DNA of 64,000 nucleotides from positions 372,001 through 436,000 of the forward strand of contig NZ_CP082162.1 in assembly GCF_023101665.1 (NCBI RefSeq). Direction: 5' to 3'. The DNA comes from Bradyrhizobium sp. 195 (GTDB lineage Bacteria > Pseudomonadota > Alphaproteobacteria > Rhizobiales > Xanthobacteraceae). A model generated the notes under the pieces. It had not been told where the DNA came from and did no database searches. It worked only from the letters and a program-made list of their open reading frames with translations. Position numbers and translations under genes: made by a program. Shown here piece by piece: positions 25,111-61,682 of the stretch. Every line of letters begins with the position of its first letter. The first letter of the stretch is position 1.

Positions 25111-25150
25111 CTGCAGGATCATGCAGCGCAAGGCGAACCGGGGCGCCATC

Positions 25151-28100
25151 ATGGACGTCGGAGTTTGGCTGCGGAGGCTTGACCTCGAACAATATGAGGC
25201 GGCATTCCGCGAAAATGAGGTCAGTGAGAAGGTCCTGCCCAATCTGACGGCGGAGGACTTGAAAGACTTGGGCGTCGCCATGGTTGGGCACCGCCGCATG
25301 CTTCTAGATGCGATTGCGGCTCTGCGCGCGGAAAAGAGCGCAGCCACGCCAGTATTCGACGTTTCTCTGGCAATCCACGAAGAGGACACCGCCGAGCGTC
25401 GCCAAGTGACCGTAATGTTCTCGGATCTCGTCGGCTCGACGGCGCTCTCGGTCCGGATGGACCCAGAGGATTTGCGCGAGGTCATCACGGCCTATCAGAA
25501 ATGTGTTGCCGAGACCGTCCGCAGCTTCGGCGGGTTCGTGGCAAAATACATGGGCGACGGCGTTCTCGTCTACTTCGGTTATCCTCAAGCGCATGAGGAT
25601 GACGCCGAGCGAGCTGTTCGTGCCGGCCTCGCCCTGATCGACGCGGTTGCTGCCCTCCCAGCTCGCGAGCCCCTGCGGATGCGGGTTGGGGTTGCCACCG
25701 GGCTGGTGGTCGTCGGAGATCTCGTCGGCTCCGGCGAAGCGCAGGAGCGCGGGATTGTCGGCGAGACGCCGAACCTTGCGGCCCGTCTGCAAAGCATCGC
25801 GGAACCGAACACGGTCGTCATTGCCCAGGCCACGCGCAAACTGCTGGGCAATCTCTTCGAGCTGCGGGACCTCGGGCCAACGGAGCTTAAGGGGATCACA
25901 GGTCCAGTGCGAGCTTTCGCGGTGCTGCGGGCCAGTTCTGTCGAGAGCCGTTTCGACGCAATGCATCCCGGCGGCCTGACCGCACTCGTCGGCCGCGAAG
26001 AGGAGCTTGAACTCCTGTTACGGCGCTGGGCAAAAGCCAAGGCCGGCGAAGGCCAGGTGGTGCTGCTGTCCGGTGAGGCCGGTATCGGCAAATCCAGGCT
26101 CTCCACTGCACTCATGGAGCGCCTGACGGCCGAACCCCACACACGGCTTCGTTATTTCTGCTCGCCCCAACACATCGACAGCGTTCTTTATCCGATCATC
26201 GGGCAGCTCGAACGGGCTGCCGGACTTGTGCACGGCGACATACCGCAAGCCAAGCTCGACAAGCTCGATGCGCTCCTGGCGCAGACTTCGACGTCCCGGC
26301 AGGACGCGGCGCTGTTGGCCGAGATGTTGTCGCTTCCTAACGACGGACGCTATCCCGCTCTGGAGCCTGTTCCCGAACAGCGCCGGCAGAAAACGCTGGC
26401 GGCACTCGGCGTCCAATTGGAAGCCCTAGCGCGGTCCAGCCCCGTGCTCATGATCGTCGAGGATGCGCACTGGGGCGATCCCACGAGCCTGGAAGTGTTC
26501 GGTCGCTCGGTGAACCGGATCGTGAGCCTTCGCGTGCTCTTGATCGTGACGTTTCGGCCTGAGTTCGACGCGCCCTGGGTCGGACAACCGCATGTGACAA
26601 CGCTTGCCCTCAATCGGCTGGGACATCGCGAGGTCGGGACCGTCATCGAGTGCGTCGTCGGCAATAAGCTGCTGCCGGCGAAGGTCAGAAAGGACATTGT
26701 CGAGCGCACCGACGGCATCCCGTTGTTCGTCGAGGAGATGACGAAGGCGGTGCTGGAGGCTGGGGGCGAGCGCGGAGCGATGCAGACTGCGGCCGCGATT
26801 CCCTCTCCAGCGCTGGCGGTCCCCGCGAGCCTGTATGCTTCTCTGATGGCGCGGCTCGACCGGCTTGGCCCGGCCAAGGAGGTAGCACAAATCGGAGCGG
26901 TGATAGGTCGAGAGTTCTCTCATGTGCTATTAGCCGCCGTGCTGCGGCAGTCAGAGCCGGAACTGGTCTCGGCGCTCGACCGCCTGATGCAAGCCGGGTT
27001 GCTGTTCCGAAACGGCATCCCGCCGCACGCGACCTATTTGTTCAAGCACGCCCTCGTTCAGGACACCGCCTATGGCACATTGCTGCGCAATAGGCGGCAC
27101 GCGCTGCACGCGCGCATTGCCCGGGCGCTCGAGGAGACGTTTCCGGACATCGCGGCAACCCAGCCGGAAGTGCTTGCGCACCACTTCACCGAAGCTGACC
27201 TTGCGGAAAACGCCGTTGCCTACTGGCAGGCGGCCGGCCAGCGCGCGGCTGAGCGCTCGGCGCATGCCGAGTGCCTTGCCCATCTCTACAAGGGGCTGGC
27301 GCTCGTCAGGCGGGTCGCCGATCCGGCGGAGCGTGCCCGCCGCGAACTCGCCCTGCAGCTCGTGCTTGCGCCGGTGCTGATCGCCACCAAGAGCTATTCG
27401 GCGCCGGAGGTGGAGCAAGCCTATCTGCACGCACGCGATCTGTGTCAGCAAGCCGGCGATGTAGCGCAGCTCTATGCCGTGAACTGGGGGCTGTGGCTTG
27501 TTTACCAGCAGCGCTGCGAGTTCAAGGCGGCTCGCGGCCTATTGGACGGGCTGTTCGCGGTCGCTCGGCAGAGCGCCGATCCGGCGCTCCTCCTGCAGGC
27601 GCATCATGCCGCATGGACGACACTCCTTCATCTCCCGGAACTGACCGCGTGTCGGACGCATCTCGAAGCCGGATGGGCGCTGTATCGGCCGGACGCGCAC
27701 CGTGGCCATACGTTCCTGTATGGCGGCCACGACGCAGCCGTCTGCAATCGATACACCGCGGCCCTCACGCTGTGGCCGCTTGGTTTCCCCGAGCAGGCGC
27801 TTGCCACGGCGCGCGAGGCGGTGAGGATGGCGCGGGGGCTGTCGCACCCCTTCAGCCTTGTTCTCGCCCTGGTGTTCGCGGCAATGATCTACCAGCATCG
27901 GCGGGAAGCGGAGCCGGCCCAGGAGCATGCGGAGACCGCAATCGCGGTGTGCGCCGAGTATGGCATCGCACCGCACCTGGCGGCGGCTGGGAGCATCTTG
28001 CGGGGGTGGGCGATCGCGGCACGCGGGCAGGCGGTGGAAGGGATCGCGGAGATTCGCGGCGGTCTCGCGGCCGTCGAGCCGACGGGCGTGCGCATCCGTC

Positions 28101-28507
28101 GGCCCTATTATCTCGCGTCGCTGGCCGAAGCATCGGCGTGGGCCGGAGAAATCGAGCAAGGATTAACCGCGCTGGTCGAGGCTGCGCGCATTGTCGAGGA
28201 AACCGGCGAGCGGCGATGGGAGGCGGAAATCTGCCGGTTAACTGGGGAGCTGACGCTTGCCAGGCGGAGCGGCGACGGGACCGAAGCAGAAGGGTGGTTT
28301 CAGCGTGCGCTAGACGTGGCGGGTTGCCAGAGCGCCAAATGCCTGGAGCTGCGCGCTGCCACCAGCTTGGCCCGGATCTGGCGCGACCGTGGCAAGCGCA
28401 GAGAATCCCGCGATCTCCTCGCGCCTATCTACGGCTGGTTCACCGAGGGCTTCGACACGTTGGATTTGAAGCAGGCCAAGTCCTTACTCGACGAGCTGGC
28501 GCAATGA
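25151..28507 (+). CDS. SAM-adenylate/guanylate cyclase-AAA-TPR signalling protein
   Basis: An intact 1,118-residue protein. Residues about 1-60 form a SAM-like domain ([35 protein letters not shown]). Then comes a class III nucleotidyl cyclase domain with both metal aspartates (MFSDLVGST near residue 90, [13 protein letters not shown] near 135), an AAA/P-loop ATPase ([13 protein letters not shown] near 315, [13 protein letters not shown] as Walker B), and a long TPR-like helical C-terminus. This architecture is common in rhizobia as a stand-alone signalling protein making cAMP. The ATG at 25151 is used; one at 25121 would add ten residues. It lies immediately after the IS110 flank. Confidence 0.92.
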
Positions 28508-47182: not shown

Positions 47183-47334
47183 GGCCGCTTAGGATTGCTC
47201 CAGTGTGGCGGCTACGTACACCCACGAAGCTCAGTGCGCTCTTGTTTACGCGGCGACCCCCTGGTCGCCAATCTTCCGATGTTCGCCGGGCTCGACGCCG
47301 CCGGGCGGAATGATTGGAGCCCTCAGTTTGGGCT

Positions 47335-48754
47335 CGTTAGAAATGTCACCACAAGGTCCGGCGAGGAGGGCGCACGGACGCGAAGCTGGCCGGGGTTGCG
47401 CAGCGGCCGGGCGCCCGGATGAGAGGCCCAGTGCCAGTGACGGCGACTGGTCGATGCGGGATTTATAGCCTGCCTTGAACAGGCTCGCACCTTGGCCGCG
47501 CCGGCGCGGGGCCTTCTGGCTGCGGCTGACGTCGAGCAGCTTCTGCTGCTCGGCGATGTACGCCAGAACCGGTCCCAACCTCTTGTTCTCGACGATCGCC
47601 GCCTGGTCGACCTGTCGCACCTTGTCGAATGTCCGGTAGGGCAACGCACGGCCCCTGTGCTTGATCACAAGCCGCCCATCCGGATAATCGAACACGGTGA
47701 CGCGCTGGCGGGCGAGGGTGCTCGTGATCTCGTTCGGCTCGAGGATGAACAGCATCTTGTCGTATTGCAGCGTCAAGCTCTGCGATACCGTGCGCTCTCC
47801 CTTCCAGGCAAAGGCATCATCCACGACGTCCTGCTCGGTCAGTGGGCGATGAACGTCCTTGTCAGTGGAGTCTTCGCAAATCGCCGATTGTAATCTTCCA
47901 TAAACGCCGGCAAAAATGCATTGCCGGCCTCGATGGTCGAGATTCCGGCCAGCCGCATCTCCTTCACAGCCGATCTTGGAGCGTTCCATTGGCACGTTCG
48001 ACACGGCCCTTCGCCTGCGGAGCGTTGGCACAGATGATATCGATGTTGAGCTCGTGCAGCGCACGGCCAAACTGGGTCATGCCATCGCCCCCGGTTGCCC
48101 CGACCTTGTTCAGCCGGAACGTCGCGTGCTTATCCGAGTAGAATGCGATCGGCTTGCCATAGCGCTGCAAATAGGCGCGCGTCGCGGCAAAATAATCAAA
48201 GGTCGACTCCGTCTCTGCAAAGCGCAAGTGCATCAAACGACTGGTCGCATCATCGATGAAGACGAGCAGGGTGCATTGTGGGCCGCGATCCTCGAACCAC
48301 CAGTGTTCAGAGCCGTCGATCTGAATCAACTCGCCCACACAGTCGCGGCGATGCCGTGGCTGGTAGACCCGTTTGAGCCGTTGCCGGCGATCCTGCCAGA
48401 GCCCGTCGGCCAGCATCCAGCGCCGCACCGTCTCAACACCAAATGCAGCCCGTGCCGCTCCGAAAGCTTCTCCGCCGCCAACGTCGGGCCGAAGTCGCCG
48501 TAATTGGCCTTGATCAGCGCCATCGCTTCGGTCCGGACAACCGCCGGATACGCCCGATTGCTCGGCTTGCCGCGCTTCTTGGAAATCAGTGCTGCAGGGC
48601 CGCCAGCGCGATATGCCTTGAGCAATCGGAACACTTGGCGTCTCGTCACGCCCATCAGCTGCGCCGCTTCGCTCGGTCGTATCCGCTCGGCCAGCAAGTC
48701 CTTCAGCACGTGAACCCGGTCGAGCTCCGCTCGGCTCATCGACAGCACCGTCAT
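47335..48754 (-). pseudogene. ISNCY-type transposase, at least two frameshifts
   Basis: The N-terminal HTH (IRPSEAAQLMGVTRRQVFRL, PAALISKKRGKPSNRAYPAV) is in one frame. The catalytic DDE-type core (CVGELIQIDGSEHWWFEDRG, TLLVFIDDATSRLMHLRFAE, ICANAPQAKGRVERANGTLQ) is in a second. The C-terminal part (ALTLQYDKMLFILEPNEIT, VTVFDYPDGRLVIKHRGR) is in a third. Shifts lie near 48440 and 47970. Family features match ISNCY (ISDol1-type) elements. Confidence 0.82.
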
Positions 48755-48818
48755 CACACCAAACTCCCAAGCCCTCATGGCCGGGACAGTAATGAGGACA
48801 GGTGTGACCTTTCTAATG
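47335..48818 (-). mobile_element. ISNCY-like insertion sequence with matched terminal repeats
   Basis: Terminal sequences CGTTAGAAATGTCAC (47335-47349) and, as the reverse complement of 48804-48818, CATTAGAAAGGTCAC match at 13 of 15 positions, and the transposase lies between them. The element is about 1.48 kb. The transposase is frameshifted, so this copy is probably immobile. An internally deleted relative sits at 50282-50471 in the other orientation. Confidence 0.75.
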
Positions 48819-49045
48819 GTGGTCTACATCATTTCTTCGCATAAGATTGATTTCGGAATATATTCCTACCGTGGAAGCTTAGGTCTTGCGGAGAATCGCT
48901 CTGACTTCACCGAGCGGTTGCCCGATTTTGTGCCAATTCCCCGGCATTTCCATGCCTGTCCGGGGCGGCCCCGAAAGTCTCACCCTGAATTGAGCTGCTT
49001 GACCCGGGGGCAGGGAGCCCAGCTGACTGGAACGTTATCGAGTTT

Positions 49046-49073
49046 CGTTTATTTCTCCTGTTGCGTTTATTTC
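49046..49073. promoter_or_regulatory. direct-repeat operator candidate upstream of the toxin-antitoxin genes
   Basis: CGTTTATTTC occurs twice in direct orientation (49046-49055 and 49064-49073), 18 bases apart start to start, about 40 bases before the antitoxin start. Direct repeats at such spacing are common binding sites for autoregulating antitoxins. Inference from position only. Confidence 0.4.
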
Positions 49074-49114
49074 GAATATCGCCTACATACAAGGCCTGCA
49101 GGGGAGAAGATACA

Positions 49115-49573
49115 ATGACGATGCCAGCCTATGCCGAAGAGCTGGGAGGTACTCGCTTGCCTTCCGCGAGTGAGAAGGCGGCAGCCAACCAGCTCCGTCA
49201 GATACTCGCGTCGCATGCGACAGGAGATGCCAAACTGCGCGTGCTCGACGATGCGCAAAAGGCTGCTGAGATCACCTTGTCACCGGCCCTGTCGAGTCTC
49301 TTGATGGAATTGCTGCGGCATATCGGTCGCGGCGACGCGGTGACGCTCGTGCCTGTACATGAGATGTTGACTACGCAGCAAGCTGCCGACATCCTGAATG
49401 TCTCGCGTCCGTTTCTGGTCTCGCTGCTCGAGAAGAACGAAATTCAGCACGTGACAGTGGGACGTCATCGCAGGATCAGGGCGGAGGACCTCTTCGCCTA
49501 TAAGCGCATGCGTGATGAGAAGCGGGGCAACGCGCTTGCGAATCTCGGTGAGCGGGACGCGGAGCATTTGTAA
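49115..49573 (+). CDS. HTH (excisionase-type) antitoxin
   Basis: A 152-residue protein whose C-terminal half is an excisionase/MerR-like winged helix: LTTQQAADILNVSRPFLVSL then LEKNEIQHVTVGRHRRIRAE and DLFAYKRMRDEKR. The N-terminal half (residues 1-85) probably contacts the toxin. It is followed after two bases by a PIN-domain toxin gene, the usual antitoxin-first order. ATG at 49115 has GGGGAGAAG upstream. Direct repeats upstream may be its operator. Confidence 0.82.
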   Translation: MTMPAYAEELGGTRLPSASEKAAANQLRQILASHATGDAKLRVLDDAQKAAEITLSPALSSLLMELLRHIGRGDAVTLVPVHEMLTTQQAADILNVSRPFLVSLLEKNEIQHVTVGRHRRIRAEDLFAYKRMRDEKRGNALANLGERDAEHL

Positions 49574-49575
49574 GC

Positions 49576-50166
49576 TTGTTTGCAAACCGCTTCACCGCAT
49601 TCATCGATGCGTGCTCGCTTGCGAGCGCGCTCAAAAGGAACCTGCTTCTCTCCTTGGCGGAGGCGGAGTTTTTTCGTCTCCGCTGGTCGAGCCGCGTCCT
49701 GGATGAGACTGAAGCAGCTATCGAGGAAATCTTGAGCGGCAAAGGCTTTGAGGATGCAAGGGCACGCGCGAAGCACGCGCGCGCCAGCATGGAAGCTGCC
49801 TTCGAAGACGCCATGGTTACTGATTTTGACAACTTCTTGCCGGTCGCGGCGGGTCTGCCCGATCCCGGTGATCACCACGTTGTTGCCGCGGCGGCCAAGA
49901 CGCAAGCCGCAATGATCGTTACTGATAACCTCAAGGACTTCCCGGCGACAGTTCTTTCCGACCTGAACATGGAGGCGAAATCCGCCGACGCTTTCATTGC
50001 GGATACTATCGCGCTCGACGAAGCGCGCGCCGTTGCAGCCATCCGGCGCATGCGCGAACGCTTCAAGAAACCGGAAATGACGCCAGTGGAGCTATTGCTC
50101 GTGATGGAGGCTGCGGGATTAATTGAGACAGTTGACCTGCTAAGGCCACACGTCGAATCTCTCTAG
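49576..50166 (+). CDS. PIN-domain toxin (VapC-like ribonuclease)
   Basis: A 196-residue PIN-domain protein. The first acidic residue is in AFIDACSLASALKRNLLLSL; further ones lie in SSRVLDETEAAIEEIL and LPDPGDHHVVAAAAKTQAAM, with IVTDNLKDFP. These are the conserved Asp/Glu sites of the nuclease. The start is a TTG two bases after the antitoxin stop, so translation is coupled and probably weak, which suits a toxin. Probable target RNA; which RNA is unknown. Located between an IS and an IS fragment. Confidence 0.82.
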   Translation: MFANRFTAFIDACSLASALKRNLLLSLAEAEFFRLRWSSRVLDETEAAIEEILSGKGFEDARARAKHARASMEAAFEDAMVTDFDNFLPVAAGLPDPGDHHVVAAAAKTQAAMIVTDNLKDFPATVLSDLNMEAKSADAFIADTIALDEARAVAAIRRMRERFKKPEMTPVELLLVMEAAGLIETVDLLRPHVESL

Positions 50167-50281: not shown

Positions 50282-50471
50282 CCTGTCCTTTTGGTATTGA
50301 GACGGTACGGCGCTGGATGCTGGCTGATGGGCTCTGGCAGGATCGCCGGCAACGGCTAGTCGCCGTCTCCGGCATTGGGGTTCTCATCCGGGCGCCCGGC
50401 CGCTGTGCAACCCCGGCCAGCTTCGCGTCCGCGCGCCCTCCTCGCCGGGTCTTGCGGTGACATTTCTAACG
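50282..50471 (+). mobile_element. internally deleted copy of the ISNCY-like element
   Basis: The segment begins inside the transposase (FGIETVRRWMLADGLWQDRR), then jumps directly to the element's 3' end (including a stretch matching 47350-47440 in reverse). It closes with GTGACATTTCTAACG at 50457-50471, the same terminal repeat as the full element. Orientation is opposite to the full copy. The left end is missing, so it is a remnant rather than a mobile miniature element. Confidence 0.65.
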
Positions 50472-51513
50472 AGCGCAATCGGCGACTTGTCTATCGAGTT
50501 CCAACAGAAGAGAACGACGGGCGCCGCCAATATGAGCTTCAGCCAGTTCCAGCTGGGCTGAGCAGCATATGGAGGTCGATCAGATGCGCGCGCATCTCCA
50601 GGCCGCATTCCGTGCTGTTGCAGACACCCGTTCGATGGCATCTGCGCGCGCATATCACCCAGAGTGCGCGCCACGAAGATCAAGCGCCTGTCCGGCTGCC
50701 ACCCTACGTGACTTTTGCGAGGCTTGGCCGCCGGGGCCACCTCCTTCACGCTTCGCCACGGGGCCTTCCATCAAGTCGACGACGTTCTCTCCCTTCGGCC
50801 ACTCCACGGCCCGGGATCGTCTCGCTGGCGCGCTTTTGACTAATCAGCCCATCAGTGAATGACGATGTGCCTGGCCAAGTCGAGCATGTCTCTGAGGACG
50901 CACTTTAGAAACGCGTTGGGCCGGCCGCGCCTTGATTCGTTGTAGATCTAAATACTAGTATTAAATTTTGGTACTTACATTAATAATCGGTTGGGTCAGA
51001 GAGGGCGGTAGGTCTTAATCGTTGCCCGCGCTTTCTGGACCACAACCTGCCTCCGTCAATGTCGTTCGGCCCGCAGCTCAATGGCTGGCGGGAGCAAGCG
51101 CCGCCAATCGGCTGACAGTCACCGTGCTCAGCGGATTTCTGAGTTCGGGGAAGCCATCCTCACTCCAGCAACAACGAAATGATGGGGCGCTGGGCATTAA
51201 AGCTCTATGCGACCATGTGACACGGAAATCTTGATTTTAAATGTTTAATGTAGTTAATATTGCTGCTTTAATTTGGCGTGAATTGAATTTTTGCCGGCGA
51301 CGCCATGGTTGTAGCAACCGTTCCGAATAACAGCGCGATCGCAGCCGAACGGCAGATCGCGTGGGGCTTCGCGCTCGGCTCCTGGTTCAGAGCCTCTCCT
51401 GTAAGTCTTAAATTGGCTCGCTCACGAACATTAGAGATGTCGCTTCACACGTCGTCTAGGTGACGGCCATCGGGACCTGTCACGCATATTCCCCTATCTC
51501 TCGCGAGGATGTC
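50472..51513. other. long stretch with debris; promoter region of the giant gene
   Basis: No intact gene. It holds the cobW 5' relic (51104-51170). AT-rich segments (about 50945-51000 and 51225-51290) stand out against GC-rich surroundings and are the most likely promoter region for the 51514 gene. Other frames are motif-free. Confidence 0.45.
51104..51170 (+). pseudogene. relic of a cobW-type gene 5' end
   Basis: Reads [20 protein letters not shown], closely matching the start of the intact CobW GTPase at 57954 ([20 protein letters not shown]), including most of the P-loop. Nucleotide similarity covers about 65 bases and then fades. The P-loop is mutated (SSGKPS) and no gene follows. Confidence 0.7.
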
Positions 51514-54500
51514 ATGAGGTCCTTGTACGAAAAGTCCGGCTTGAGCCACATAGCTCTCGGATTGCGGAGTTGGCCACGGACTCTGCGCCAGAGAAATATC
51601 TGGGCGTCTGATTCAGACGCCGAGGACGAGCGGCTGTCGCCGCACGCCGCACGAAATCCGCTGAAAAGTACAGGCCCGAGCACCTCCGATACCGATGCGC
51701 TATCGTCCAGTATGACTTCGCCCCCTGGATTTGCGGGCGTAACCGCAGGATTGCGAACGCCAACTTCTGCGGCAGCCGACCGAATGACCTCAAATCCCGT
51801 CGTCATCCTCGGTCAGGTCCCGTCGGCGGCCTTGACCCCGAGCGTCATCGGATCGTCTACGCCTCCAGCGGTCGCGCAGATTTGTGGTTGCGGCTACTTC
51901 ATTGCTCCAACACGATTGCTCGATCAAAGTGCAGGCCATAACGGACAATTGCAGGGTAGTCGATTGTCTGGAGGAGCGGATTTCGTGCTGACCGGTCATG
52001 CCGGCATCATGGGAGCCTCTACCAGTGCTGACATGTCATTGCAGCACGTTGCGCCACTTGCCAACTGGAGCGTGCTGCCAGGCGGAGGCGAGACCGGTGC
52101 GAGGACGTCGGCCGGCCCAATCGGAACTTTGTCCGGCTCGGTGACGACCGCAAAGGCTCCCCCGGCCGGCCGCCAGCCCGCCACAACGGAGTCGACCAGC
52201 CTTCTCGCGGCCGCAGCGGCTTCTACAAATCCAATCGTTCTCGAGAACCAGAAGCCGGGAAACCCACAAAGCGAATGGGATATCGTTGGCGCGGGCAGTT
52301 CGAATATCGAAGGTTTTGCCACCGACATCAGCGTCAATCGGGGCAATCGGGTCGACTTCAAGATCAATACGAATTCATCAAACTACCGGATCGACATCTA
52401 CCGCCTTGGCTACTATGGCGGCATGGGAGCGCGAAAGGTCGCCACGATCCAGCACACGGGCGTGCAGAATCAGCCTGCGCCGCTGCGCGACGCGGCCACC
52501 GGCCTGGTCGATGCCGGCAATTGGTCCGTCTCAGACTCTTGGAATATTCCGGGCGATGCGGTGTCCGGCGTTTATATCGCAAAGCTCGTGCGCCAGGACG
52601 GAACTGCCGGCGCCAATCACATCCCCTTCATCGTTCGAGACGACGGCAGCACCAGCGATGTCGTCTTCCAAACCTCGGACACGACCTGGCAGGCCTATAA
52701 CGGCTGGGGCGGCGCCAATTTCTATGGCGGCAACGGTCCCGCGACCGGTCAAGGCGCGGGACGTGCCTACGCGGTGAGCTATAACCGGCCGATTGCCACC
52801 CGCGGCAACGTCGGGACCGTTGCCGGTCCGCAGGACTATCTGTTCGGCGCCGAATATTCAGCGATCTACTGGCTGGAGCAGAATGGTTACGACGTCTCCT
52901 ACATGTCGGGAGTCGATGCAGACCGTTACGGCAGTCTCCTCCTCAACCACCAGCTCTACCTCGATGTTGGTCACGACGAATATTGGTCCGGACAGCAACG
53001 CGCCAATGTCCAGGCGGCCCGCGATGCCGGCGTGAATCTCGCGTTCTGGAGCGGCAACGAGATGTATTGGCGCACTCGCTGGGGCAACAGCATCAGCAGC
53101 GAAGCCAGCGCCTATCGCACCCTGATCTCCTATAAGGAGACCTGGTTACCGGGAGCGTCGATTGATCCAAGCGACCAGTGGACTGGGACGTTCCGTGATC
53201 CACGCCTCAGCCCGCCGGCGGTTGGCGGGGGAATCCCGGAAAATGCCCTGATCGGGCAGATGTTCCAGGTCGATGATGTCGGCCAAGGCAACCTCCAGGC
53301 AATCACAATTCCCGATGACGACGCCAATCTGCGCTTCTGGCGCAACACCAGCGTCGCCAATCTTCAGCCCGGGCAAACAGCAACGCTGACCAAGAACTAT
53401 CTCGGCTACGAGTGGGACGAAGCGCCCGACAACGGATTCGATCCAGCCGGCCTGGTTCGACTCTCCTCGACAACGCTTCCCGTCAATAGCTATCTCCTCG
53501 ACTACGGCAACACGACCGGCAGCGGCGTCTCAACCCATAATCTGACGCTCTATCGCGCTCCGAGCGGCGCATTGGTCTTTGGCGCCGGAACGGTCTATTG
53601 GGCGTGGGGCCTGAGCGACAATCACGACCTGGCGCCGACGCCAACCGATCCGCGCGTGCAACAGGCGATGATCAACCTGCTCGCCGACATGGGGATACAA
53701 CCTGGAACGCTCCAGCCGGGGATGGTCGCGGGTACCGCTTCAGCGGACTCGACGGCCCCGACCTCCACCATCAACGCACTGGCAAATTTCGTTGCCGGAA
53801 GTGCGGTCACGATTTCCGGCACGGCAGCGGATGACGGCGGTGGCGTGATCGCCGGCGTGGAAGTCTCGACCGATGGCGGACTGAGCTGGCAGAACGCGAT
53901 CGGTGACGAGACATGGACATATACCTGGTCGCCGCAGGTTGGCGGGACTTACACCATCAAATCACGCGCGGTGGACGACAGCATCAATCTGGAAACACCC
54001 TCGGCGGGGCGCACGGTGACTGTTTCGGCACCAACTTATGTGACGCTGTTCCCAGGCTCGGCGACCCCTGCGGTCGTCAACACCACAGATTCAAGCGCGG
54101 TCGAGCTCGGAGTGAAGTTTCAGACCTCGGTGGCCGGTACTGCTAGCGGCATTCGGTTCTACAAGAGCAGCCAGGATACGGGTACCCACACCGGCGAGCT
54201 CTGGTCGAGCACGGGCACGAAGCTGGCGACGGTCACCTTCACAAACGAGACCGCGAGTGGCTGGCAGAGCGCGATCTTTTCCACTCCGGTGTCGCTGACG
54301 CCAGGGGCAACCTACACCGCCTCCTATCATACCAATGTGGGCCGCTACTCCAACACCACCAACTACTTCACCACTAACGTGACAAGCGGTCCGCTAACAG
54401 CGCCCGCTTCCGGTAATGGCGTCTACGCGTACGGCAGCACAAGCCTGTTTCCGACGAATACGTTCTCTGCGACGAACTTCTGGGTCGACGTCATGTTCAA

Positions 54501-57500
54501 CCCGTCCGCCGCCAACCAGTCGCCGGCGGCCGCGAACGATGTCGGCCCTACCGTGACGCAAGACACACCGATGGCCATCACGGCGGCGTCCCTAATCGCC
54601 AATGACAGCGATCCGGACAGCGATGCCTTGACTGTCACTGCCGTGAGCGCACCCACGAACGGAACCGTCACGCTCAACACGCAACCCAATCCACAGAACA
54701 ATACCATCACCTTCACGCCCAACGCCGGCTATACCGGTCCGGCGAGCTTCAGCTACACAATCTCGGACGGACGCGGCGGCACGGCTTCGGCGAATGTGAG
54801 CTTCTCGGTGGTACCGCCCGGAGCGGCTCCCGTGAGCCTGTTCAGCGCGTCCAGCACACCGGCACAAACCGCCCTTAATGATGGACAACAGCTCGAGGTC
54901 GGCGTGAAATTCACGTCGTCGGTTGCCGGCAAGGTCACAGCCCTCAAGTTCTACCGCAGCGCCAGCGACACCGGCTCCGACATCGTCAATCTGTGGACCG
55001 CCACCGGCACCAAGCTCGCCAGCGCGACGTTCACCAACACAGCCGCTAGCGGCTGGCAGACCGTCGCGCTGCCAGCGGCCGTGTCCATCGCCGCCAACAC
55101 CACCTACGTTGCCTCCTATCACACCACCGGCACCTATGTGGCGACCAACGGCTATTTCACCACCGCTGTCACCAATGGCCCCCTGACGGCACCTTCAGCC
55201 GGCAACGGTGTCTACGCCTATGGTGGCACCGGCACCGCCGGGATCTTCCCGACCAACACCTACAACGGCGCCAACTACTGGACGGACGTCGTGTTCGTTC
55301 CGAACGGCTCCACCAATGTCGCGCCGACGGCGGTCGCCGACGCGACGGACGCCACCGAAAAGGGTGGAACGGCGAACGGCACCGGCGGCTCGCTGGCCAC
55401 CGGCAACGTCCTTACCAACGACACCGACTCCGATGCCGGCGACACTAAGACCGTGACCGCCGTCAGCTTCGGCGCGACCGCCGGTACGCTTGGCACGGCG
55501 CTCGCCGGCGCCCGCGGCAGCCTAGTGCTCAATGCCTCCGGGGCGTTCACCTACACCATCAACGAGAACGATGCCGCTGTGCAGGCCTTGCGGCTGTCGA
55601 CCAACACGCTGACCGATGTCTTCAACTACACGATGCGCGACACCGCCGGCGCCACATCGTCGGCGACACTGACTGTCACCATTCACGGCGCCAACGACGC
55701 GCCGGTGCTAGCAGCCCAGACGGGCAACCAGAGCGCCACCGTGGGCTCGACCTTCTCCCTGGTGCTGCCCGCCAATACCTTCACCGACGTCGATTCCGGC
55801 GACACGCTCACCTACGCCGCCACCGCTGCCGACGGCTCGGCGCTTCCGGCATGGCTGACCTTCAACGCTTCGACACGGACGTTCAGCGGCACACCGACGG
55901 CGGCCGGTACCTTCGGTATCAGGGTTGCAGCCACCGATCTCGGGACCCTCGCCGCCAACGAGACGTTCAACATCATCGTGTCGACAACGCCGAACGCGGT
56001 GCCGACGGCGGTCGCCGACGCGGCGGATGCCACCGAGAAGGGCGGAACCGCCAATGGCTCGGGCGGCTCGCCCGGAAGCGGCAACGTCCTCACCAACGAC
56101 ACCGATCCCGACGCCGGCGACACCATGACTGTCACCGCCGTCAGCTTCGGCGGGACCTCAGGCACGCTTGGCGCGGCCCTCGCGGGAGCCCACGGAAGCC
56201 TCGTGCTCAATGCCGCCGGTGCGTTCACCTACACCATCAGCGAAACCGATGCCGCCGTGCAGGCTTTACGGCAATCGACCAATACGCTGGCCGATGTCTT
56301 CAACTACACCATGCGCGACACCTCTGGCGCCACGTCGTCGACCACGCTCACGGTCACCCTTCACGGCGCCAACGACGCGCCGATGCTGGCGGCCCAGACC
56401 GCGGACCAGAACGCGAGCACCGGCTCGGCCTTCTCCCTGGTGCTGCCTGCCAATACCTTCACCGACGTCGATTCCGGCGACACGCTGACCTACTCGGCCA
56501 CCGCCGCCGACGGCTCGGCGCTTCCGGCATGGCTGACGTTCAACGCTTCGACACGGACGTTCAGCGGCACGCCGACAGCGGCTGGTAACGTCGGTGTCAG
56601 GGTTTCAGCGAGGGATCTTGGCGGCCTTGCCGCGAGCGAGACATTCAATATCGCCGTGTCCGTCCCTCCCGCGACGGTGAGCCTGTTCTCGAGTTCGGAC
56701 AGGCCGGCGTTGCTGTCGGATTCCGATGCGTCCCAAGTTAATCTCGGCGTGAAGTTTACGTCGTCTGCGGCCGGCACCATTACCGGCATCAAATACTACA
56801 AGGGCGCCAGTGACACCGGCACGCATACCGGCTCATTGTGGAGCAGCACCGGCACCCTGCTGGCGACCGCGACCTTCACGGGCGAGACCACCAGCGGCTG
56901 GCAGACCGTGACGTTCGGCAACCCGGTGTCGATCACCGCCGGCACCACCTACGTCGCGAGCTTCCACAGCAACGGCCGTTACACGGCAACCGGTAACTAT
57001 TTCACCACCGCTCATGTCAACGGCCCGCTGACGGCACCCGCGAGTGGCAACGGCGTTTACACCTACGGCACGGGCACTCTGTTCCCCACCAGCACATTCG
57101 GTGCAACCAATTACTGGGTGGATGTGGTGTTCACCACAGGCGGCGGCGCCAACCAGTCGCCGGCTGCGGCGAACGACAGCGGTTTCAACGCTTCCCAGAA
57201 CAGTTCGCTCACGATTGCTGCTTCGGCGCTGCTCGCTAACGATACCGATCCGGACGGCGATGCATTGACGATCACGGGCGTCAGTGGCGACGTCAACGGC
57301 ACCGCGAGCTTGAATGCCCAGACCAATACCGTGACCTTCACGCCGACGGCGGGCTATACCGGGCCAGCGTCCTTCAACTATGCCATCGCCGACGGCCGGG
57401 GCGGCACCGCCAGTGCGTCGGTCGCTCTCACCGTGAACGCCGCGTCTTCTACCATTGTGAGCCTGTTCAGTTCGAATCCCACGCCGAGCATTGTGTCGGT

Positions 57501-57945
57501 CAACGATCCGAACTCGGTGGAGCTTGGGATGAAGTTCCAAGCCTCCAGTGCCGGCGACATCACCGGACTCCGCTTCTACAAAGGCGCATCGAACACCGGC
57601 AGCCACGTCGCGGATCTCTGGAGCAGCACCGGCACCCTGCTCGCCACCGCCACCTTCACCAACGAAACCGCCAGCGGCTGGCAACAGGTGAATTTCGCGA
57701 CCCCGGTGACGATCAACCCGGGAACCACTTACATCGCGTCCTATCACACCGCCGGAAACTACGCGGCCGATCCGAACCTGTTTGCCAACGCCGTCACCAA
57801 CGGGCCGCTGACGGCTCCGTCGTCCAGCTCCAGCGGCGGCAACGGCGTGTATACGTACGGAAGCGGGAGCCTATTCCCGACGAACACCTACAACTCGACG
57901 AGCTATGGTGTTGACGTGCTGTTCCGTCCCCAGCTCACCAGCTAG
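51514..57945 (+). CDS. giant modular protein: DMFase-like domain, Ig/cadherin-like domains and four DUF4082 modules
   Basis: An intact 2,143-residue protein. Residues 1-240 are a Ser/Ala/Thr-rich leader without a signal peptide. About 240-730 resemble the large-subunit domain of N,N-dimethylformamidase ([65 protein letters not shown]). Next comes an Ig-like domain (745-840), then DUF4082 modules at about 843-998, 1106-1265, 1721-1875 and 1982-2142. They are interspersed with two cadherin-like domains and a tandem pair of 226-residue VCBS/cadherin-like units. No RTX repeats or LPXTG anchor. Probably exported by an unrecognised route. ATG at 51514 has GCGAGGATGTC; 51460 is also in frame. cobW follows by 8 bases. 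Confidence 0.85.
55323..56678. repeat. tandem 678-bp repeat within the giant gene
   Basis: Two adjacent units (55323-56000 and 56001-56678) of 678 bases, 226 codons, with high nucleotide similarity (for example GCCGACGGCGGTCGCCGACG at the start of each). They encode VCBS/cadherin-like domain pairs ([33 protein letters not shown]). The close match suggests recent duplication or gene conversion. Confidence 0.75.
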
Positions 57946-57953
57946 GAGGACTG

Positions 57954-59201
57954 ATGGAGAGAGCGGACAAGGCTAATCGGCTGCCAGTCACAGTGCTCAG
58001 CGGATTCCTCGGTGCAGGGAAGACAACGATGCTCAACCACGTGCTGCGGAATCGCGAGGGTCTGCGCGTCGCGGTCATCGTCAATGACATGAGTCAGCTA
58101 AACATAGACGCGAATCTGGTCCAGAACGGCGGTGCCAACCTGTCACACACGACGGAGACGCTCGTAGAGCTCAGCAATGGTTGCATATGCTGCACGTTGC
58201 GCGACGACCTTCTGCTGGAGGTCCGGCGATTGGCACAAGAACGGCGTTTCGATTATCTGCTGATCGAAGGAACCGGGGTTTCTGAACCTCTTCCCATTGC
58301 GGCAACATTCTCCTTTCGCGACGAAGCTGGCGCCTCCCTTTCTGATTTTGCGAGACTCGACACAATGGTCACCGTCGTCGACGCCTTGAGCCTGCTCGCC
58401 AACTATAGCAGTCGTGACCTGTTACGTGATCGCGGCGAGTCGCGCGGTACGCATGACCAGCGGACGCTCGTCGATCTCCTGGTTGAGCAGATCGAGTTCG
58501 CCGACGTAGTGGTGATCAACAAGGTATCAGAAGCGACAGAGGCGACCCGTGTGGCAATTCGCAAGGTGGTTGCTGCAATCAATCCCGAAGCGCGCCAAGT
58601 CGAGACCGACTTCGGCGAAGTTCCTCTCAAGGTCATTCTCAATACCGGCCTTTTCAACGAAGCGAAGGCTGCGACACATCCCCTCTGGCACAAGGAGCTA
58701 TACAGCCCCGATTCACATGTGCCGGAGACCGATGAGTACGGCATATCCAGTTTCGTCTACAAGGAAAGGCGTCCCTTCGATCCTCACAGGCTTTTGTCTT
58801 TTCTCAACAAGCCCTGGCCGGGTGTGATTCGCGCCAAGGGACATTTCTGGCTCGCCACCCGTCCGGATTGGGTCGGTCTCCTCTCCGTTGCTGGGATGCA
58901 ACGTCGGTGCGAGCCGATGGGCTTTTGGTGGGCAACAATCCCAAAACCAAGCTGGCCAAGCCATCCTCAGTTTCAAGAACATCTCAACAGCCGATGGGAC
59001 GGCGTTTGGGGCGACCGACGTCAGGAACTCGTGTTCATCGGTTCAGATATGGATGAAGCGTTCATCCAAGCTTCGCTGGATGCCTGCCTAACCCATTCCG
59101 AACAGGGGTTCGATCCGCAGAGCTGGCGTAGCCTTAGCGACCCGTTTCCACCTTGGCATTCTCCTGACCATGGGAACCACACCGCAGTGTCCCTTCTCTA
59201 G
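57954..59201 (+). CDS. CobW/COG0523-family metal-chaperone GTPase
   Basis: A 415-residue G3E GTPase. It has the P-loop [15 protein letters not shown] (about residues 15-29), the metal-binding [13 protein letters not shown] motif (about 75-87), [20 protein letters not shown] as Walker B region, and VVINKVS for guanine recognition. The C-terminal CobW_C domain ([40 protein letters not shown]) is complete, ending near [14 protein letters not shown], mildly histidine-rich. Such proteins deliver zinc, cobalt or iron to client enzymes. Its AGGAGGA site overlaps the stop of the giant gene, so the two are co-translated. A metal-dependent DMFase-like client is therefore plausible. No Zur box was recognised. 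Confidence 0.9.
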
Positions 59202-59988: not shown

Positions 59989-60892
59989 TCAGGCATTGCG
60001 CAAGACTTTCTCAAGCTGCGCAACGAGCTTCGACCTCTGCTCGGCAGGGAGCTTGTCCAGATTGATCTGCTTCCAGCGCACCGCCGGCAGCTCCGCCGCG
60101 CCAGGGACGCCTAGCAGGCTCCAATCGGGCTCGCCGCGCTTGAACCCCATGAGGAAATCCCTGTGAGCTTGCGGCATTTTTCCCGCGATTTCGGCGATCA
60201 GCGTTTCCCGGGCTTCGAGTAACTCGTCCAAGCTTACGTCACTGGCGGTCATGCCCTCAAAGCCGTGCGTGAATTCGTGCTGTAGGAGGAACCACGACCT
60301 CGGAAATCGGCCTGTCATGGCTGATGAGGTAGACGATGAACGCCTTGCGGAGATCGTCCGTGATGCCTTCGTTGGCGAGCAGATCGCGGACGTCGAAGAG
60401 GTCGCGCGGATGCTGCCGGTCGAGAGCCGCGACGAGCTTGCCGGCGTATAGATCGGCGAGGGAAACAACTTTCATCTGTGCGAAGCCGAACGTTTCTTCG
60501 ACGCGCGCCGACACGTCGCGCAGCTCCGGCTCAAAAAAGCAGCCTCTGATCACCGGCGTGACCTCGATCTTGATTTGCGCGTCGCCTTTCTGGACGGTCA
60601 GCTTGGTGACGATCTTTTCACGGGCGTTGACGACTTCCGTCACCCGTGCGCCCGGCAATCCCTTCCTGGTGGCCGCTACGATGCGCTTCATCGCCGCATC
60701 GATCGCGGCAAGAGATTCGGGGCGCGGAGCCACCGGCAGATAGGTGAGGTCGATATCGACCGACAGGCGCGGCATGTCGCGGTGGAAGAGATTGATCGCG
60801 GTGCCGCCCTTGAGCGCAAAATCAGGCTCCGCCGCGACGAACGGAATCGTCTCGATCAACAAGACCACTTGATGCCGATATTTTTCAGACAG
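59989..60892 (-). pseudogene. AbiEii-type type IV toxin (nucleotidyltransferase), frameshifted
   Basis: The first frame gives the AbiEii nucleotidyltransferase core: LLIETIPFVAAEPDFALKGG, TAINLFHRDMPRLSVDIDLT (with GG and DID motifs) and VVSLADLYAGKLVAALDRQH. A shift near 60295 then moves the C-terminus (GMTASDVSLDELLEARETLI, LMGFKRGEPDWSLLGVPGAA) to another frame. The natural start position is CTG at 60892 (SEKYRHQVVLL follows), overlapping the antitoxin stop; only an internal GTG (60868) is usable. The toxin is probably inactive. Confidence 0.82.
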
Positions 60893-61682
60893 GGGCGTTG
60901 AGATCGTGTGGGATAGTTATGAGGTATTTGGTGTCGAGTTTGCCGCCCTTGACGAGCATACGCTTTCCGGTACCGAGATTAACTTTCGACTTGTCGATCT
61001 GTTTGAGCCAGGCGTGCTGATGCCGCTCCGCGAACCAGAAGAACAGTCGTTTGACCTTGACGCTCTTGCAGTCGTCCAGAAGCGTTTGCAGCCGCCGGGG
61101 ACTGAGGCTCCTCAAGCCTTCCGCCAGGGCATCGACCTGATGGAAGCTTTCGTGGCGGGGCAATTCGTCGAGCAGTTCGAGGAACGCACGTTCGGGCGTC
61201 GATACCGTGAGAGGCCAGTCGAATGGTCCCGGTATTTCCCGCGTCGTTCCCGACTTTGATCCGGGCAGGCTCCCGTGCGTTTTGAATAGACTTTGCGTGC
61301 GGTGAACGCGGAATTTCTGTTTGAGCGGGAGTTTGCCGAGCCAGCCGGGAGCAGGCCGCGTTCCGTATAGATGTACGGTCGAAGGACCCGTCTGGCTCAA
61401 GTAGTGGCCGAGGCCTTGCGCTTCGATCGCGATACGTCCGCCGACGACGAGATCGGAGCCGAGCAGTCGCTGGAGTGACACGACAACGCCTTGCCAGGAG
61501 AGTTCACCGAGCGGGCGCTTAAAGGCTCCCCGCGCCGGCTGAACCAGCCAGCCGGCCGATACGTATTGGCTGCGCAGGCTGGTGGAATATCCATGCTGTT
61601 CCATCCAGGCAGCATCGACCAGAAGTCCCTGCGGAACGGTCCTTTCGAGCCTGTTTAGCTTCCTGTCCTTTTGCTCAGCCAT
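60885..61682 (-). CDS. AbiEi-type type IV antitoxin
   Basis: An intact 265-residue protein. The N-terminal winged helix (LLVDAAWMEQHGYSTSLRSQ, YVSAGWLVQPARGAFKRPLG) is the usual DNA-binding part. The C-terminal domain includes VSTPERAFLELLDELPRHES and LLDDCKSVKVKRLFFWFAER, typical of AbiEi antitoxins that repress the operon and counter AbiEii. Its stop overlaps the toxin start site. With the toxin broken it may now act only as a regulator or be under relaxed constraint. Confidence 0.85.
   Translation of the reverse strand: MAEQKDRKLNRLERTVPQGLLVDAAWMEQHGYSTSLRSQYVSAGWLVQPARGAFKRPLGELSWQGVVVSLQRLLGSDLVVGGRIAIEAQGLGHYLSQTGPSTVHLYGTRPAPGWLGKLPLKQKFRVHRTQSLFKTHGSLPGSKSGTTREIPGPFDWPLTVSTPERAFLELLDELPRHESFHQVDALAEGLRSLSPRRLQTLLDDCKSVKVKRLFFWFAERHQHAWLKQIDKSKVNLGTGKRMLVKGGKLDTKYLITIPHDLNAPV

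Follow-up and report, generated by a model that had tools for sequence, protein, structure and literature searches.

A giant DMFase-like protein inherited with a CobW-family GTPase in Bradyrhizobium: a possible exported amidohydrolase and its metal-handling partner

The window analysed here is a stretch of 64,000 nucleotides from Bradyrhizobium sp. 195 (assembly GCF_023101665.1, contig NZ_CP082162.1, positions 372,001 to 436,000 of the forward strand), and positions are counted from its first letter. It carries a gene for a giant protein with a domain related to N,N-dimethylformamidase (DMFase), followed directly by a gene for a CobW/COG0523 GTPase. Giants of this kind, probably exported, are inherited together with a particular branch of CobW proteins in nodule-forming bacteria and some relatives, several of which have secretion and polysaccharide genes nearby, and the pair points to an undescribed system that edits the cell surface or its surroundings. 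The main features are listed below; the residues of the Paracoccus enzyme (parDMFase) with which they are aligned include its iron ligands, taken from excerpts of PMC7686228.

51514..57945, + strand: giant open reading frame (ORF), 2,143 aa (ORF list and Pfam)
52219..53703, + strand: modelled DMFase-like catalytic region, giant residues 236-730
52696..52698, + strand: Tyr395 codon (TWQAYN), equivalent of iron ligand Y399 (alignment)
52723..52725, + strand: Tyr404 codon (NFYGG), equivalent of iron ligand Y440 (alignment)
52972..52980, + strand: His487 and Glu489 codons (GHDEYW), equivalents of H519 and iron ligand E521 (alignment)
53056..53058, + strand: Asn515 codon, equivalent of N547 (alignment)
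53410..53412, + strand: Glu633 codon (GYEWD), equivalent of E657 (alignment)
56701..57120, + strand: highest-scoring of four DUF4082 modules, residues 1730-1869 (Pfam)
57943..57953, + strand: giant stop overlapping the GGAGG ribosome-binding site of cobW
57954..59201, + strand: CobW/COG0523 GTPase, 415 aa (PF02492 and PF07683)

The outline given in an earlier note on this DNA is borne out: Pfam finds the DMFase-like domain and four DUF4082 stretches in the 2,143-residue protein, and the ATG of cobW (57954) follows the giant stop codon (57943-57945) after 8 bp, with a GGAGG ribosome-binding site that spans the stop: TAGGAGGACTGATG. An in-frame GTG at 51460 would lengthen the giant to 2,161 aa; the ATG at 51514 is taken as the start because an MRSLYE/MRSFYE-like beginning is common to most relatives. 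The N-terminus is rich in Ser, Thr, Pro and Ala (judged by eye), residues 292-703 match DMFA2_C (E 2.6e-96), and Big_9, cadherin-like and He_PIG domains accompany the DUF4082 stretches. The ratio of nonsynonymous to synonymous substitution rates (dN/dS) is 0.07-0.22 for giant and cobW alike in the ten pairs compared, and 0.07-0.09 for the DMFase-like domain.

On alignment and structure prediction, the catalytic domain of the giant has the DMFA2_C fold and all six iron-ligand and catalytic positions of the DMFase/N-acyl-amino-acid acylase superfamily. The two tyrosines and one glutamate that hold the iron align with Tyr395, Tyr404 and Glu489, and the catalytic His519, Asn547 and Glu657 with His487, Asn515 and Glu633. 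The earlier note had allowed that the ligand positions might be lost; they are retained. It had also guessed the ligand glutamate correctly, the Glu of GHDEYW being the counterpart of E521, and had proposed the wrong tyrosines. The equivalent of Y440 was ambiguous from the profile alone and was settled because ten short Bradyrhizobium DMFA2_C proteins, one of which was compared with the solved chains, bridged the alignment to parDMFase. All six positions are kept in 15/15, 28/28 and 104/105 aligned sequences. The largest of these alignments, which includes 94 proteins from the best 120 of 6,009 listed and is biased to close relatives, has Tyr at the Tyr404 position in 105/105 rows, retains His487, Glu489 and Glu633 in 105/105 and Asn515 in 104/105. 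With this alignment AlphaFold2 modelled the catalytic region at a mean predicted local distance difference test score (pLDDT) of 95.4; a model from 28 close relatives only (mean pLDDT 40.4) was discarded. Iron would be the metal of the predicted site. Elsewhere in the genus, short DMFase homologues occur in tandem (L211 204-5316). One of them (L211 2995-5316), despite a match to the Paracoccus enzyme at E 2e-168, carries Cys where Y440 would be and Ala in place of E657, and a further short homologue (L214 125-2452) has Phe, Arg and Ala at the Y399, H519 and E657 positions, respectively.

The CobW protein of the window contains the CobW GTPase and CobW_C domains with intact Walker A and GCICC motifs. 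Its top NCBIfam match is ZigA (NF038288), over the full length, at 569.9 bits and thus below the 600-bit cut-off. All eight linked CobWs scored with this model, the window's included, fall below the cut-off (537.6-576.1 bits), and all six canonical ZigAs lie above it (601.8-624.1 bits). In a tree of 76 rows, 61 rows, nearly all giant-linked, form a branch apart from ten canonical ZigAs (ten of about 90 hits, from Bradyrhizobium only), with support of 94/97, which is short of the tree tool's own bar of 95. A further difference lies upstream. A 15-base Zur-box consensus was built from the boxes seen in canonical loci; as a null, 300 stretches of 350 bases drawn at random from the same loci gave ten or more matches in 39 cases. 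All 11 canonical Bradyrhizobium ZigA loci examined carry a Zur-type box of 14/15 or 15/15, 76-88 bp before the match start. The best match ahead of cobW and the giant in the window is only 8/15, all 20 linked Bradyrhizobium loci stay at 10/15 or below, a background level, and 11/15 is the most that linked loci of other genera attain. Because canonical-like loci of other genera also score low (Rhizobium/Mesorhizobium, L205-L207, 9-11/15; two of Methylobacterium, 12/15), the contrast is clear only within Bradyrhizobium. Zur control of the giant-cobW pair was considered and rejected, the box being lacking. The window CobW may be described as a ZigA-like GTPase that lacks a Zur box and would have become the inherited partner of the giant.

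The association was surveyed in 195 Bradyrhizobium genomes; counts from the genome searches are lower bounds, with up to nine (CobW), eight (giants of 78% or more) and six (family level) scored candidates per genome. The CobW search gave at least 109 matches at E 1e-50 in at least 83 genomes, and the DMFA2_C search gave 127 matches in 71. CobWs of at least 70% identity lie within 8 kb of a DMFA2_C match in 17 of 19 cases, CobWs below 70% in one of 90. One of the two unpaired CobWs (G037) is near a contig edge and is preceded by bases that resemble the end of a giant; the other (G177) is 14 kb from a DMFA2_C match. Giants whose domain identity is 78% or more number at least 25 in at least 20 genomes, 19 of which also have a CobW of 70% or more; the twentieth (G032) has an adjacent CobW of 65%, and no CobW of 70% or more was found in the other 175 of the 195. 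The adjacency that the earlier note had seen at a single locus is thus conserved in other genomes, and it is more than chance because it recurs in many of them and both genes are under purifying selection. Gene order varies. The giant precedes cobW with 8 bp or less between them in five 20-kb loci, the window among them (in L077 the earliest possible cobW start would give a 4-bp overlap), and cobW precedes the giant in 13 Bradyrhizobium loci. Translational coupling, as first proposed, accordingly suits the window and four other loci of the genus but neither the 13 reversed loci nor the gaps of 21-102 bp in four Rhizobium regions.

Beyond the genus, 80 named loci (the best 80 of 182, ranked by similarity to the domain of the window) were examined, 50 of which have a long flank, that is, at least 6.5 kb before and at least 7 kb after the domain. 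CobW is present in 47 of the 80 (44/50 long-flank loci and 3/30 others). Long-flank loci without a CobW within the stretch are L081, L090, L141, L146 and L158; that of L092, apparently split by a frame break, was left out of the count. The pair occurs in Bradyrhizobium, Rhizobium, Sinorhizobium, Mycoplana, Rhodoblastus, Lutibaculum and Neoroseomonas, the last with a CobW that is less similar (48-51%) and encoded on the opposite strand. Among the family-level matches listed, CobWs of 70% or more are confined to Bradyrhizobium, save for a 147-residue fragment (76%) in G279. Four Rhizobium plasmid regions selected among the matches all read giantA-cobW1-giantB-cobW2, so that each of the eight giants is followed by a CobW after 21-102 bp; cobW1 and cobW2 fall into two groups of the tree. 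Polysaccharide genes lie on one flank of these arrays and, where the stretch reaches, genes for a 102-aa protein and for ABC and HlyD exporter proteins on the other. The 102-aa protein is conserved. In R. johnstonii its gene (L159 27662-27970) separates cobW2 from the type I exporter genes, and relatives lie close to either the exporter or a giant in Sinorhizobium, Lutibaculum, Methylobacterium, Rhodoblastus and Neoroseomonas; it gave no convincing match to any family or structure.

The genome of the window (G000) consists of C1 (8.3 Mb), C2 (0.6 Mb, which carries the window) and a third contig. Seven places encode cobW domains, two of which adjoin znuA-like and cobalamin genes (by eye). One more DMFA2_C giant is present, on C1, followed by a BltD orthologue, a relative of the 102-aa protein and HlyD (C1:3480000-3512000, L173-L175); acyltransferase, Gfo-Idh and DegT genes lie within about 20 kb. 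The exporter at this locus is of the BltDE type, amino-sugar genes are present, and no CobW of the giant-linked type was found there. Upstream of the window giant lies the remnant of another cobW:

50899..51153, + strand: decayed remnant of an upstream cobW copy (5' part) plus flank (match to relative L072; cobW-like part about 51105-51153)

Positions 51188-51560 match the sequence 3' of the L072 cobW, and about 1.1 kb of the cobW present in L072 is missing from the window; L059 bears the same scar. In several relatives with the order cobW-giant, the bases before cobW resemble the 3' end of a giant (by eye). We infer that giant-cobW units ancestrally stood in tandem, an arrangement that Rhizobium has retained, and that Bradyrhizobium lost some of them. 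The giant of the window has a mosaic make-up: its domain is nearest to L072 (synonymous divergence, dS, 0.24, vs 0.48 to L059), and its 3' end and cobW are nearest to L059 (cobW dS 0.17 to the L059/L080 genome). Transposase-like frames of an integrase-type insertion sequence (IS; by eye) occupy 47246-48844, a short part being apparently repeated near 50375-50470. An HTH_17 protein and a PIN_3 protein, resembling a toxin-antitoxin pair (Pfam), are encoded upstream of the giant at 49061-50166, and AbiEi antitoxin and AbiEii toxin genes (Pfam) lie directly downstream of cobW at 60257-61682 on the minus strand. Farther away, 25121-28507 encodes a 1,128-aa protein with a SAM domain, an adenylate/guanylate cyclase domain and an AAA ATPase domain.

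The explanation that we place first, tentatively and with somewhat less than even confidence, is that the giant acts, after export, as an N-acyl amidohydrolase of the surface or matrix and is inherited with a metal-handling CobW. Export, extracellular action, iron as the metal, an N-acyl substrate and metal handling by CobW are each inferred. The giant would exit the cell unfolded through an HlyB-type type I system of the BltDE kind and fold outside; the folded protein would bind Fe3+ through Tyr395, Tyr404 and Glu489 and would remove N-acyl groups, most likely from the N-acylated amino-sugar polysaccharide of the cell itself or from root-surface amides, and the DUF4082 and cadherin-like modules might keep it in the matrix. 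CobW would handle metal for giant production, either by supplying the right metal to new chains or by keeping the wrong one off before export.

Several observations weigh against this explanation. No type I secretion genes were seen near the giant in the window, and the BltD orthologue of this genome (66%) sits beside the other giant. Within the stretches examined, exporter genes, although seen in several genera, occur in only 12 of the 50 long-flank loci and acyltransferase, Gfo-Idh or DegT genes in only 17, and the polysaccharide enzymes scored below their NCBIfam cut-offs. No RTX family is among the Pfam matches of the giant, although RTX repeats are not universal in type I cargo. Because type I cargo is exported unfolded, loading of metal in the cytosol is mechanistically awkward, and the name ZigA suggests zinc while the active site suggests iron. 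Furthermore, 21 Bradyrhizobium genomes have only giants of 59-65% and no CobW of 70% or more, and only five of them (G005, G059, G066, G078 and G144) have any CobW match at E 1e-50; all six residues are kept in the giants of all 21 (20 fetched domains and L177). Such CobW-less giants, together with recombinant DMFase that is active when made in E. coli, with kinetics like those of the native enzyme (excerpts of PMC7686228), are the strongest points against strict metallation and leave the dedicated metallation factor of the earlier note unproven. The strict version, a type I-exported metalloenzyme whose own cytosolic COG0523 GTPase loads or guards the iron site before or during export, the metal being fixed inside and the work done outside on N-acylated surface polysaccharide, is in our judgement unlikely.

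Because the CobW-less giants keep all six residues, confidence in the preferred explanation and in its strict version was lowered and that in the nearest competitor raised. The competitor, which we hold somewhat unlikely yet worth taking seriously, is an exported amidase-fold giant that is not metallated by CobW, the GTPase serving general zinc/iron balance or giving a metal-based cue for the timing of expression or export, and being kept in the operon for dosage. The ZigA-like score of the CobW agrees with it, as do the link of a subset of COG0523 proteins to zinc limitation (excerpts of PMC2770081), the 21 genomes just described and the placing of cobW on either side of the giant in Bradyrhizobium. 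It sits poorly with the absence of a Zur box and the separate branch of the linked Bradyrhizobium CobWs, and with the four Rhizobium regions that keep one CobW per giant, since a general function would need no such doubling. A decidedly improbable alternative makes the giant a structural matrix adhesin with a non-catalytic, merely ligand-binding DMFase-like domain. Cadherin-like, Ig and DUF4082 modules do make up most of the protein, and cadherin-like proteins exported by type I secretion act in Rhizobium biofilms (excerpts of PMC9298526 and PMC5061743), but an adhesin would not be expected to keep all six positions throughout the three alignments and in 21/21 further genomes, or so low a dN/dS in the domain. 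That the giants are bacteriocin-like BltDE cargo which inhibits competing strains, as proposed in print (excerpts of PMC2275737) and repeated in a 2024 review (excerpts of PMC10925705), seems very improbable: the R. johnstonii 3841 ABC protein has its highest score with HlyB-type type I secretion (675.1 bits, the cut-off of 725.55 not being reached) and lower scores as a bacteriocin exporter (345.7 to 439.7 bits), the amidase-type site appears intact, and polysaccharide genes adjoin the cargo genes. Scarcely credible is mere hitch-hiking of giant and cobW on plasmids or islands, for although many copies are plasmid-borne and the window locus, with its mosaic giant, lies amid an IS-like frame and toxin-antitoxin genes, the association outlasts changes of gene order, replicon and genus, co-occurrence in the 195 genomes is nearly perfect and both genes are under purifying selection.

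COG0523 GTPases are widespread and few have a known client, and the linked branch has a clear genetic partner. The two tandem giant-cobW copies in tractable strains of the R. leguminosarum type would allow GTPase and client to be deleted separately. Rhizobia commonly carry giants, and the combination of an amidase-type site with neighbouring amino-sugar polysaccharide genes offers a testable alternative to the bacteriocin role, in matrix or root-surface chemistry. If the metal is indeed fixed ahead of type I export, metallochaperones and secretion would be linked in a new way.

The interpretation of the earlier note is, overall, partly supported, and its statement that no such system is described is nearly right. 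In R. leguminosarum 3841, two giants, pRL90159 and pRL90161, were put forward in 2008 as predicted BltDE cargo, possibly bacteriocin-like. Excerpts of PMC2275737 describe them as large proteins that contain a repeat of about 140 aa and are encoded directly before bltDE on pRL9; in size, repeat and location they match two giants of NC_008379. As seen in those excerpts, this account names neither a DMFase fold nor CobW partners, the word cobW being absent from the main text of PMC2275737, and a search of open-licence PMC yielded no paper that links CobW with DUF4082 or these giants. Lentil root colonisation requires the glycosyltransferase pRL90136 (excerpts of PMC11103875). Compared with the large subunit of N,N-dimethylformamidase (Paracoccus, PDB 6lvb), the giant sets the domain in a modular, probably exported protein of 2,143 aa, and some 250 residues that separate the first from the last part of the solved acylase chain have no equivalent in its modelled region. 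No pentraxin-like domain II was recognized (the profile alignment to the acylase chain skips about 250 residues, and no pentraxin- or laminin-G-like family is among the Pfam matches of the giant), nor was a small subunit like the 15-kDa one of DMFase identified. N-Acetyl-(R)-beta-phenylalanine acylase (PDB 8huy, 8i5a), on which no paper was found, shares about 20% identity and is a stand-alone protein of about 770 aa. The window CobW resembles ZigA in its full-length best family match, Walker A and GCICC motifs and, unlike ZigA, scores below the equivalog cut-off, lacks a Zur box, falls in a separate branch and is tied to giants. The client of the Fe-type nitrile hydratase activator (Nha3/P47K) is not a modular exported giant. 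According to excerpts of PMC2770081, this activator is a COG0523 protein required by one iron enzyme and belongs to another COG0523 subfamily (subgroup 2); by analogy, it may be taken as a precedent for a GTPase that serves a single iron enzyme.
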